Shown here: positions 13,482 through 17,559 of the stretch, one piece after another
Layout of the letters: each line of letters starts with the position of its first letter
Position numbering within the stretch: position 1 is the stretch's first letter
Assembly: GCA_018816555.1 (NCBI GenBank)
Contig: JAHIVT010000007.1
Location: forward strand, 1 to 36,355
DNA: 36,355 bases
Direction of reading: 5' to 3'
Origin: Pseudomonadota bacterium
GTDB lineage: Bacteria; Desulfobacterota; Desulfobulbia; Desulfobulbales; SURF-16
Position numbers and translations under genes: made by a program
Notes under the pieces: generated by a model
The model's input: the letters and a program-made list of their open reading frames with translations, nothing else
The model's database searches: none
Told to the model about the DNA's origin: nothing

Positions 13482-13666
13482 TTAGGGACTCGGAAAATGT
13501 TAATTTACCTGGATCGCGCCCGGATTTGGGTCAGATTTGGTTGCGCCGATTGAGCAAAACCGCAGGCGTAGCAGTGCTCCGGCGAGGATTTTGTGATTGA
13601 GGCACGGCCAAAGATGGCCTGAAGACGGGATGCGTTATGGTATTTTGGTATTTTCCGAGTCCCTTA
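13482..13666. mobile_element. MITE-like element, 179 bp with 14-bp perfect terminal inverted repeats
   Basis: GGGACTCGGAAAAT at 13485-13498 is matched by its exact reverse complement at 13650-13663. Each is flanked on the outside by TTA (13482-13484 and 13664-13666), which is what a 3-bp target duplication would leave. The interior has no reading frame of note, but contains a GGCCA/TGGCC hairpin near 13608-13621. Size, ends and lack of coding capacity fit a miniature inverted-repeat transposable element moved by a transposase elsewhere. The right TTA is, on the minus strand, the TAA stop codon of the mscS-like gene. Confidence 0.7.
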
Positions 13667-14911
13667 TTTCCCGCCCGCCATCTGTTGCAGGTCGTGGCCG
13701 GAAGGATACTGGAAGACCCGGAGACCAAATTCGGGGACTATAGCCAGCAGATGGTCAAAGATGTCTGCCTGGATAGACTCATAAACTGCCCATTTTTTTT
13801 CAGCGCTGAAAACATAAATTTCTATGGGCAGCCCCTGGGGCGTGGGGGCAAGATGGCGCACCAGAAAAGTCAGTTCCTGGTTGATATTGGGGTTATTGTG
13901 CAGATATGCCTGGATATAGGCTCTGAAAACGCCGATATTTGTCTGCCGCCGCCCACCAAATTTTCCCGGCTCAGGGTGATGGGCACTGTTGTATTCTGCA
14001 ATCTCCTTTTCCTTATTCTGCAGATAGTCATCAAGAAGTTCGTATTTTTTAAAATGTTCCAGCATTTCATCCGTGCAGAATGTGATTGAGCTGGTATCGA
14101 TGTATATGGCGCGTTTGATTCTGCGTCCGCCGGACTGGGTCATACCCCGCCAGTTTTTGAAATCCTCGTTCACCAGGTGATAGGTAGGGATGGTGGTAAT
14201 GGTTTTGTCCCAGTTCTGTACCTTAATCGTGTGCAGGGATATATCGATCACATCTCCGTCGGCACCGCGTTTCGGCATTTCTATCCAGTCGCCCACCCGG
14301 ATCATGTCGTTTGCCGTCAACTGCAGATTGGCGACAAAACCCAGGATCGTATCTTTGAATATCAGCAGCAGAACCGCGGTCAGACCGCCCAGAACGCTGA
14401 TGATACCCCAGGGGGATTTACCGGTGAGAATGGAGACGATGAAAATGGTTGAAAGGATATAAAGAATGATTTTTACGGCGCTGATATATCCTTTAACCGG
14501 CCAGTCCGAGGCCAGTTTGGAGTTGTCATATATCTGATGGAATGAGCGCAGAGCTGCATCCGCTACCCGGATGCCGATGATGACGAGCAGGATCAAGGCC
14601 AGCCGCTTGATGATCAAATTGATGTGACTGTAATCAGAAAAAACGAGATCAGCCGCTTCGTATAAAACAACAGCCGCCGGCAGTGTGGCCAGCCTTTTGA
14701 AAAAGTGGTTGTGGATAAAGATGTCATCCCATTGGAAGCTGCTGCGATAGGCTGTTTTTTCCATAACCGGGATGATAATGCGCCGGGAAAACCAGGTAAT
14801 GGCCAGTGCAAGAAAGGCGACAAACAGTATGGTCACCGCGAGATACACCAGTTCCTGTGTTCCTTCAGAAAGACCGTAACCAGCCAGGTATGTGCGGAAA
14901 GTAGTCAGCAT
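13664..14911 (-). CDS. MscS-family mechanosensitive channel, YbdG-like
   Basis: Inner-membrane channel expected to open under osmotic down-shock. From the ATG at 14911 it has 415 residues, matching the length I recall for E. coli YbdG. Membrane helices are seen at about 17-40 (ELVYLAVTILFVAFLALAITW), 75-90, 110-130 and 155-180. The pore segment and the beta domain follow (GGLTAVLLLIFKDTILGFVANLQL, VGDWIEMPKRGADGDVIDISLHTIKVQNWDKT), then a long C-terminal cytoplasmic part with FKNWRGMTQSGGRRIKR. An upstream start at 15085 would add 58 basic, low-complexity residues that overlap a probable promoter for the opposite strand, so I reject it. The stop codon lies inside the target duplication of a MITE-like insertion; the last residues QQMAGGK may therefore be altered. 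Confidence 0.85.
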   Translation of the reverse strand: MLTTFRTYLAGYGLSEGTQELVYLAVTILFVAFLALAITWFSRRIIIPVMEKTAYRSSFQWDDIFIHNHFFKRLATLPAAVVLYEAADLVFSDYSHINLIIKRLALILLVIIGIRVADAALRSFHQIYDNSKLASDWPVKGYISAVKIILYILSTIFIVSILTGKSPWGIISVLGGLTAVLLLIFKDTILGFVANLQLTANDMIRVGDWIEMPKRGADGDVIDISLHTIKVQNWDKTITTIPTYHLVNEDFKNWRGMTQSGGRRIKRAIYIDTSSITFCTDEMLEHFKKYELLDDYLQNKEKEIAEYNSAHHPEPGKFGGRRQTNIGVFRAYIQAYLHNNPNINQELTFLVRHLAPTPQGLPIEIYVFSAEKKWAVYESIQADIFDHLLAIVPEFGLRVFQYPSGHDLQQMAGGK

Positions 14912-15008
14912 AAGTAATATAATATATAACCAATCAGATTTTTTCTTATTCTTACGGGAGGATGGCCACCTTGTCAAGTGCAGGTTCTTCTTCTGCCGGT
15001 GGTAAAAC

Positions 15009-15037
15009 TTGACAAAATCCTTTGATGGGCATAATCT
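15009..15037 (+). promoter_or_regulatory. Candidate promoter for the small-protein/his/engB unit
   Basis: TTGACA at 15009-15014 is perfect. The -10 is either CATAAT at 15030-15035 (15-bp spacing, slightly short) or TAATCT at 15032-15037 (17 bp). A start near 15043 would give a leader of about 100 nt before the Cys-rich ORF at 15143. It lies between the divergent mscS start and this operon, as expected. Confidence 0.4.
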
Positions 15038-15142
15038 GAGAGCTTTAGGTTTGGCTTGGCAATCCTTTTGAGGGTCAGGAGACATGCTTGAAGCCTTTTG
15101 GTGTGCCGTTACGGCAGTTAGACTTCCAGGTCAGGTGAAGTT

Positions 15143-15322
15143 TTGGAGTTGCTTTGCGAGAAATATAAGGAAAAGGTCGATTCCGATCAGGCCGTCTGTT
15201 CCCACCCCGGAGAATACTGCCGTTTCAGGACGTCATGCATGATTCATTTCATTGAAAAGGAAAATAGTCGGGAACAGCGGGTAAAAAAGCAGGAAAAAAA
15301 CGATGCAGAAACTGAGATTTGA
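15143..15322 (+). CDS. Small Cys-rich protein overlapping hisI
   Basis: A 59-residue frame starting at TTG 15143, with AGGTGA at 15133-15138, and ending at TGA 15320-15322, 20 bases inside hisI. The product starts [12 protein letters not shown] and contains [18 protein letters not shown]. Four Cys (positions 5, 19, 26 and 32) and two His suggest a metal site, followed by a Lys/Glu/Gln-rich tail. The Cys/His-dense core does not look like random shadow translation, and the overlap implies translational coupling to hisI. I believe similar short proteins occur in related genomes, but cannot verify it. No signal peptide. TTG at 15149 is an alternative start. Function unknown. Confidence 0.6.
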
Positions 15323-15680
15323 CAAAGGGGGAGGGCTTCTTCCGGTGATTGCCCAGGACCACGTGACCGGCGAGATTCTCATGCTGGCCTATATCAACCA
15401 GGAAGCCTGGGAGAAAACCCTGTCCACCGGCAAGGCCCACTACTGGAGCCGTTCGCGCAACAAGCTCTGGCTGAAGGGTGAATCCTCCAACCATGTGCAG
15501 CTGGTCAAAGAAATTTTGGTTGATTGCGATGAAGATACAGTTGTATACAGGGTTGAGCAGTTGGGAGGCGCGGCGTGCCATAAAGGATATCGAAGTTGTT
15601 TTTTCCGCCGCGTGCAGGGCGACGAACTCGTAATCAAAGATAAACCTGTGTTTGATCCACAGGAGGTATATAAGAAATGA
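15303..15680 (+). CDS. hisI: Phosphoribosyl-AMP cyclohydrolase
   Basis: Opens the purine ring of phosphoribosyl-AMP, the third step of histidine synthesis. The 125-residue protein has the single-domain form (no HisE fusion). Motifs are [40 protein letters not shown], and the zinc/magnesium-binding [14 protein letters not shown] and [14 protein letters not shown] with the conserved Cys residues. The ATG at 15303 lies within the end of the Cys-rich ORF. The stop overlaps the hisG start as ATGA, so hisI and hisG are translated in sequence. No other his gene is in the window, so the pathway is dispersed or located elsewhere. Confidence 0.95.
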
Positions 15681-16555
15681 ATGAACTAAAGCTAAAGCTT
15701 GGTATTCCGAAGGGCAGCCTGGAAAAGGCGACCATTGAGCTTTTCGCCAAATCCGGATGGCAGATTAAGCTCTCTTCCAGAAATTATTTCCCGGAGATTG
15801 ATGATCCTGAGCTTTCCTGCTCCATCTGCCGCCCCCAGGAGATGTCCCGCTATATTGAAGAAGGTATCCTTGATGCCGGCATTACCGGCAAGGACTGGAC
15901 TCTGGAAAATGAATCGGACGTGGTTGTTGTTGAAGATCTCATCTACTCAAAGGTAAGCCGGAAACCCACCCGCTGGGTCATCGCCGTGCCGGGTGATTCC
16001 GCTATGAAGACCGTTGAGGATCTGGAGGGTAAGAAAATCGCCACGGAGCTGGTTGGCTATACCAGGCGTTTTTTCGCGGAAAGAAATATTCATGTTGATA
16101 TTGAGTTTTCCTGGGGCGCAACCGAGGCCAAGGTGGTCTCCGGCCTGGCCGATGCCATTGTCGAAGTGACGGAAACCGAGTCCACCATTCGAGCCCATGG
16201 GTTGAAAATCATCCATGAACTGATGACTTCCAATACCCAGTTGATCGCCAACAAGGCGGCCTGGAATGATCCATGGAAACGTGAAAAGATTGAAAATATC
16301 GCCATGCTGTTGCAGGGCGCCCTCAGGGCGGACAAGATTGTCGGCCTGAAGATGAATGTGCCGGAGGAAAAACTTGAAAAGGTGATCGCTATGCTGCCCA
16401 GCATGAATGGCCCGACCATTGCTCCTCTTTACAATACAAAGTGGTTTTCGGTTGAGACCGTTATTTCCGAACATCAGGTGCGTGATTTGATTCCCGGGCT
16501 TCTCAAGGCAGGTGCGGAAGGCATCATCGAATACGCCTTGAACAAGGTAATTTAA
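15677..16555 (+). CDS. hisG: ATP phosphoribosyltransferase, long form
   Basis: First enzyme of histidine synthesis, joining ATP and PRPP. At 292 residues it is the long (HisG-L) type, with a C-terminal ACT-like regulatory domain (from about residue 220, [17 protein letters not shown] through [19 protein letters not shown]) used for histidine feedback in characterised members. So no HisZ partner is needed. The catalytic part begins [16 protein letters not shown], includes DAGITGKDW and [14 protein letters not shown], and carries the PRPP loop [14 protein letters not shown]. It overlaps hisI by four bases; engB begins three bases after its stop. Confidence 0.95.
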
Positions 16556-17217: not shown

Positions 17218-17559
17218 TTGAGTGAGAGGGTGAAAATGCTTAGAGAGACAGCATTGAACGAGGTGGAAGTACCATTAAGTGATGTGAAAGTGATGTCTGT
17301 AAGTTCTCAATATTCCTGTTGGGAAATTATGCAATGCGGTAATCAGAGGTGCACAGCCCGCATCCAGCGCAGCATGCCCTGCTGGGAGATTGCCAGTAAG
17401 CTCGATGATTATCGTACCGCTTTAAATGTCTGTTCCGACTGTATCGTTTATCTGAGTCATCATAAGAATTCCATTCTCTCCCCTAAGGAGATTGATGAGA
17501 TTCTCAAACAGAAAGGGGTGTGCATTCTGCATGAGAGATGCCAGCAGAAAGCGGATTGA
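17218..17559 (+). CDS. Two-CW domain small protein
   Basis: A 113-residue cytoplasmic protein with two Cys-Trp motifs: CWEIMQCGNQRC at about residue 34, and CWEIA near residue 59. These are followed by CSDC near 78 and two more Cys near the C-terminus (GVCILHERC). This pattern matches what is called a two-CW domain; its function is not established, and the Cys groups suggest metal or redox binding. The start is TTG at 17218 with AAGGGG six bases upstream; an ATG at 17236 would drop six residues. It follows engB by 68 bp and may have its own promoter. Confidence 0.75.
   Translation: MSERVKMLRETALNEVEVPLSDVKVMSVSSQYSCWEIMQCGNQRCTARIQRSMPCWEIASKLDDYRTALNVCSDCIVYLSHHKNSILSPKEIDEILKQKGVCILHERCQQKAD

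Follow-up and report, generated by a model that had tools for sequence, protein, structure and literature searches.

A short open reading frame that overlaps the start of hisI in a genome of the order Desulfobulbales is a genuine gene, whose 59-residue product carries four cysteines that are fixed among its relatives; it is linked to hisI in the order, and in a number of genomes the two are fused into a single frame. We give about an even chance to the reading that the product is a Cys4 metal-binding accessory domain, the metal probably being zinc, which is translated just before HisI in this order and would serve as a docking or stabilising appendage rather than as a regulator. The window, meaning the whole stretch of 36,355 nt that was analysed (contig JAHIVT010000007.1), had previously been given a sequence-only reading, and the frame, its length, its TTG start with AGGTGA ahead and its end 20 bases inside hisI were all borne out:

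15133-15138, forward strand: Shine-Dalgarno-like AGGTGA, 4 bases before the TTG
15143-15322, forward strand: Cys4 mini-protein gene, 59 residues, TTG start at 15143, TGA stop at 15320-15322
15155-15157, forward strand: codon of Cys5 (in CEKY), invariant
15197-15199, forward strand: codon of Cys19, invariant
15218-15220, forward strand: codon of Cys26 (in the pair Tyr25-Cys26), invariant
15236-15238, forward strand: codon of Cys32, invariant
15303-15322, forward strand: 20 bases shared by the mini-protein gene and hisI
15303-15680, forward strand: hisI, phosphoribosyl-AMP cyclohydrolase, 125 aa, ATG start
15677-16555, forward strand: hisG, ATP phosphoribosyltransferase, 292 aa
16559-17149, forward strand: engB-like GTPase gene, same direction, after hisG (name taken from the sequence-only reading)

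Conservation of the frame

Matches to the mini-protein were found in 72 of 97 related genomes (E up to 0.01), with one match in the window's own genome; 70 of the 72 were read with their flanks, the two left out (G051 and G078) having turned out to be remnants. Across all 28 aligned rows of the order, Cys5, Lys7, Cys19, Cys26, Arg29 and Cys32 are invariant, whilst in 26 rows drawn from the whole phylum, the window included, the invariant positions are Cys5, Cys19, Tyr25, Cys26, Arg29 and Cys32. The window protein has the family motif, C-x-K followed by C and then Y-C-x2-R-x2-C, in register. Both the cysteine positions and the frame are thus conserved in related genomes, as the sequence-only reading had required of a genuine small Cys protein; the fixed cysteines also favour its suggestion that the protein is likely to bind metal. 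Its description of a compact core with four Cys and two His holds for the whole frame, in which the two His are not adjacent; the core that it quoted contains only three of the Cys, the fourth being Cys5 in CEKY. Neither His is conserved in the 28 rows: several have Arg at position 21, and Asn, Gln, Tyr and Cys all occur at position 35.

A scan of 84,980 species returned 58 relatives, of which 57 have hisI in the locus; the other, L156, appears by eye to continue into a methylase-type sequence. The record titles of the named loci give Desulfurivibrio, Desulfobulbaceae, Ca. Desulfobia, and unclassified Deltaproteobacteria or Proteobacteria, which points to Desulfobulbales as the order of the window; one carrier is Desulfurivibrio sp. 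AMeS2 (L146). These loci overlap largely with those of the 97-genome set. The mini-protein frame stays open for 41 codons in all 57, a count that is partly by construction as the loci were picked by peptide patterns of the same frame; the other frames are open in 14, 3, 37, 16 and 6. In 55 of the 57 the four Cys keep their register, the exceptions (L157 and L158) being frameshifted copies; this too is partly by construction, the patterns containing Cys5 or Cys26 and Cys32, except for Cys19, which is absent from every pattern.

The core of the mini-protein is under purifying selection. Over codons 1-42, dN/dS between the window and three relatives was 0.08 (L101), 0.15 (L103) and 0.10 (L104); L102 differs from the window by one silent change, and L105 and L107 are saturated at silent sites. 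Of the 133 differences that separate the window from six relatives, 83 are at third codon positions, and the last ten codons of the gene are under weaker constraint. At the homologous start position, 47 of 67 loci have ATG, 12 GTG and seven TTG, with one unassigned; this presence of a start codon at the same position across loci supports TTG as the true start. That there is no gene, and that the frame is open by chance or through its overlap with hisI, is an explanation that might appeal for a short frame with a TTG start; however, the frame, its start position, its cysteines and its codon pattern are kept across the order and beyond, and given the matches in 72 of 97 relatives, the fixed cysteines, the low dN/dS and the steady linkage to hisI, it was rejected as having a negligible probability.

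Linkage to hisI, fusion and loss

Synteny with hisI, a check proposed by the sequence-only reading, holds in 67 of the 70 matches whose flanks were read: hisI is directly downstream of the mini-protein gene or in one frame with it. In the remaining three (L067, L068 and L070) there is no hisI in the piece of sequence, and what is encoded is a longer, B-box-like form of the protein. The two genes are separate in 42 of the 67 loci, and in 26 of these pairs they overlap or are no more than 5 bases apart; the overlap is 20 bases in eight, as in the window, and four bases in seven, and the widest gap is 113 bases, these figures depending on hisI starts placed by alignment, where the codon is not ATG in 10 of the 42 pairs. 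This close spacing agrees with the earlier proposal, and the overlap in the window suggests that translation of the two genes is coupled.

In the other 25 loci, the mini-protein and HisI are encoded by one open frame. On a tree of HisI and HisG, made by a quick method, 12 changes of the fused state are counted, of which well-supported branches force at least six. An ATG is kept at the HisI start in 23 of the 25 fused frames, often, as judged by eye, with a purine-rich stretch before it; hence both fused and free HisI may be made from such loci. Fusions of HisI to the product of a neighbouring gene, such as HisIE, HIS4 and others, are known, and adjacency and overlap precede fusion (PMC1963479). 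The partners in the known cases covered by that source are his enzymes, whereas the mini-protein is a non-enzymatic Cys domain. None of the passages covered in that article on 'delta', 'Geobacter' or 'unknown function' is about the mini-protein, and 'Desulf' was absent from the text covered; nor was a description found in the parts of PMC8102479 that were covered. More generally, no description was found in the literature within the scope of the search, which covered mainly openly accessible papers, and this is no proof of absence.

The gene is less widespread in the order than its neighbour, hisI being present in 92 of the 97 genomes. Twenty genomes with hisI and without an intact match were inspected upstream of hisI: four contain remnants (E 6e-11 to 3e-4), namely a copy with in-frame stops (L248), one split over two frames (L247), a truncated copy (L245) and a fragment (L239), and 16 contain nothing clear, three of them giving matches at E 0.02-0.06 that were taken as chance and the rest none. 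Intact copies are kept in sister genomes of two of the remnants (L053 beside L245, and L063 beside L239). In family f11, a match was found in one of ten genomes and hisI in nine of ten. That the gene decays before an intact hisI in several genomes implies that the mini-protein is dispensable, and unneeded for hisI as such. Decayed copies before an intact hisI were seen in the draft genomes of L239, L245, L247, L248, L069 and L157; assembly errors may account for some of these.

Cys75 and Cys99 of HisI, which along with Cys92 have a role in zinc binding, are present in all 66 loci compared that have the gene, and Cys92 in 65 of them; all three are found in each of 18 loci without an intact copy. 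Hence the idea that the mini-protein substitutes for a lost zinc ligand of HisI was rejected. No diagnostic column of HisI splits the 66 loci cleanly from the 18, the best difference being 0.54 at column 20, a statistic that ignores relatedness.

These patterns also bear on regulation, the sequence-only reading having suggested that the protein could sense the state of the cell or act on its operon. The his leader peptide, or attenuator, is a short frame upstream of his genes that contains a run of His codons. The mini-protein is likewise a short frame upstream of his genes; however, it has no such run, it shows long-term conservation of its amino acid sequence, and it is fused to HisI. Identity with a leader peptide of this kind was rejected, the 59 residues including only two His, which are not adjacent. 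A broader version, in which a leader frame, by being translated, opens the hisI start and the operon responds to the peptide's metal or redox state, would be served by the 20-base overlap and by the closeness of 26 of the 42 separate pairs; against it, selection on amino acids acts over the core, far from the overlap, there are just the two His codons, no Rfam family in the window reaches its gathering score, and the gene is fused, up to 113 bases away or lost without loss of hisI. We regard it as very improbable. Promoter-like sites in the window are no more numerous than in shuffled sequence (three, against 4.1 expected), and there are four terminator-like sites against 3.1 expected. With other genes as its neighbours elsewhere, the suggestion of a sensing or regulatory role found no support.

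The family beyond the order and its likeness to known domains

The family extends across the phylum, and it is without a name in the libraries searched. A profile built from the order alone matched 124 of 395 phylum genomes; a broader one, applied to genomes at least 95% complete, matched 154 of 394 at E up to 1e-4, with a single match in 142 of these and two in twelve. The loci of 63 genomes outside the order were then hand-picked from the hit lists of 124 and 154 matching genomes, favouring mostly stronger hits and unusual frames, so that the shares given here for different partners are not frequencies. In none of the 63 does a same-strand hisI lie within 400 bases. Instead, surE is downstream in 16, from 11 families, and argJ precedes the gene in six; the order argJ, mini-protein, surE was seen conserved in L185, L183, L175, L180, L187 and L189. 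In about half of the 63, none of the partners searched for was found.

Fusions recur outside the order with different enzymes and proteins. In four of the 63 (L078, L081, L082 and L083), the Cys4 domain stands in front of a C-terminal tetrapyrrole methylase, which we take to be CobI; in another four, a 4Fe-4S ferredoxin is fused at the N terminus; and in four more, the C-terminal partner is RACo, the corrinoid-protein activase, in three whole frames and a fourth (in genome G542) that ends inside RACo. The RACo fusions (L193, L194, L249 and L250, the L249 frame stopping inside RACo) have the B-box-like long form in front, in which the motif is preceded by an extra C-x2-H stretch; this form occurs in 15 of the 63. 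A dnaJ gene was observed after one long-form copy (L254, 2239-3351, forward strand).

It is the N-terminal C-x2-H stretch of this long form that weakly resembles the B-box zinc finger (PF00643), with a best match at E 0.0018 and 18.9 bits against a cut-off of 24.1. Of five long-form proteins, three matched at E up to 0.05, each scoring under the 24.1-bit cut-off, and L193 did not match at E 0.01. The short form in the window differs in having no C-x2-H stretch, and the Y-C-x2-R-x2-C half lies outside the matched part; the window protein gave no match to the model at E up to 1. With every match below the Pfam gathering score, membership of the B-box family was rejected. A second likeness is to the N-terminal domain of DENR (PF21023), which has a zinc-binding role: a C-x-x-P-x-E-Y-C stretch was matched (E 0.012 and 0.008), but over only 14 residues, at 15.6-16.2 bits against a cut-off of 25.3, and in two of 26 members at E 0.05. 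The window protein itself scored 15.6 bits, below the gathering score of 25.3. Membership was again rejected, and the resemblance is probably a convergence. Otherwise, no Pfam or NCBIfam model matched the window protein at its cut-off, nor any NCBIfam model ten of its relatives; 26 family members searched against Pfam at E up to 0.05 gave, apart from the two DENR_N matches, one slime-mould repeat in a single member. A profile search of the PDB sequences and a search of a plasmid collection both returned no match.

The structure of the mini-protein was predicted with AlphaFold2 from 45 rows. In the best model (pLDDT 86, pTM 0.64), strands at residues 2-5 and 10-13 form a beta-hairpin, and residues 29-57 a helix; the other four models disagree in confidence, with pLDDT of 79, 60, 59 and 59. 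Foldseek found no match to the model among solved structures at E up to 10. A second structural look aligned one row of 11 at Z 2.0, to the helix only of a TRIM ligase, and this was taken as chance. In a model of the natural fusion L101, HisI is predicted with pLDDT above 90, the mini-protein domain, by blocks, with 67 to 39; the linker is likewise poorly predicted, and residues 28-54 fall below 50; the model gives no sign of the domain packing on HisI.

Possible roles of the mini-protein

The mechanism we favour, at the even chance given above, begins with one zinc ion, most likely held by Cys5, Cys19, Cys26 and Cys32 within a fold that would run from a beta-hairpin through a Cys loop to a long charged helix. 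Zinc is suggested by four invariant Cys within a span of 28 residues, in a small cytosolic protein with a B-box-like long form, and is the probable metal; an iron-sulfur cluster would fit the four Cys equally. An accessory domain is indicated by the overlap and by the repeated fusion to different enzymes, and members of this family may have become attached to different partners through operon overlap or fusion. In the Desulfobulbales that partner would be HisI: translated in succession from overlapping frames, or as one chain, the domain would be made beside nascent HisI, with which it could make contact as a docking or stabilising appendage and not as a regulator. Several results pull against this. 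The gene is dispensable, as the 20 genomes with remnants or nothing clear indicate; the HisI cysteines are unchanged with or without it; the fused model shows no packing, and the models of the lone domain disagree; the HisI ATG is left in nearly all fused frames; and a lasting neighbour could be explained by operon inertia alone, hisG and the engB-like gene, which follows hisG in most relatives too, also having stayed.

The same retained ATG and the same absence of packing suit a quite different account, which we hold to be plausible while giving it a minority share of our belief. The protein may have a housekeeping-like role of its own that has nothing to do with HisI, for example as a zinc-finger adaptor or in binding nucleic acid, and simply ride in whichever operon its lineage provides, the fusions being by-products of stop loss between overlapping neighbours. 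The change of neighbour from order to order, with hisI in 67 of 70 here and in none of the 63 picked genomes elsewhere, 16 of which have surE, fits this well, as does the single match in 142 of 154 phylum genomes. However, recurrent fusion to a tetrapyrrole methylase, ferredoxin, RACo and HisI disfavours a wholly independent function, and the lack of a clear trace in 16 genomes that have hisI is not what would be expected of a strict housekeeping gene. It is unlikely, in our view, that the domain instead carries electrons or an iron-sulfur cluster in place of zinc. The fusions to a 4Fe-4S ferredoxin and to RACo, with its 2Fe-2S domain, would suit such a role, as would the record titles of the named loci, which point to organisms presumed to be sulfate- or sulfur-metabolising anaerobes; however, the chemistry of HisI requires no electrons, and the long form resembles, if below the Pfam cut-off, a zinc fold.

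More speculatively, and we think with little likelihood, the family could be a partner-swapping metal mini-domain that acts while proteins that depend on a metal or cluster (HisI, SurE, ferredoxin, RACo and tetrapyrrole methylase) are being made or just afterwards, placing the metal or holding the partner. A helper role at the time of synthesis would explain why the domain is retained just before or inside such different genes, and, were it true that the domain serves the metal sites of its partners, it would represent a new kind of small helper in anaerobes. Otherwise it is still a clear orphan domain that can be annotated by its motif. In either case, a gene that is easily overlooked, being short, overlapping and begun with TTG, belongs to a family with matches in 154 of the 394 phylum genomes sampled and with fusions to proteins of four unrelated kinds, which name direct candidate partners, HisI first among them.

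Two other features of the window were observed. After the engB-like gene lies a second small Cys-rich frame (17218-17559, forward strand, 113 aa, TTG start), which had no match in Pfam and a weak one to the two-CW domain (NCBIfam NF045718, E 0.11); that domain is, like the mini-protein, a small Cys domain, but does not match the mini-protein frame. Upstream of the mini-protein gene, on the opposite strand, is an MscS-like gene assigned on weak family scores (best E 0.00025). Its frame (13664-15085, reverse strand) would encode an unusually long and charged N terminus, and the real start may be near 14911, leaving a wider space before the mini-protein gene.
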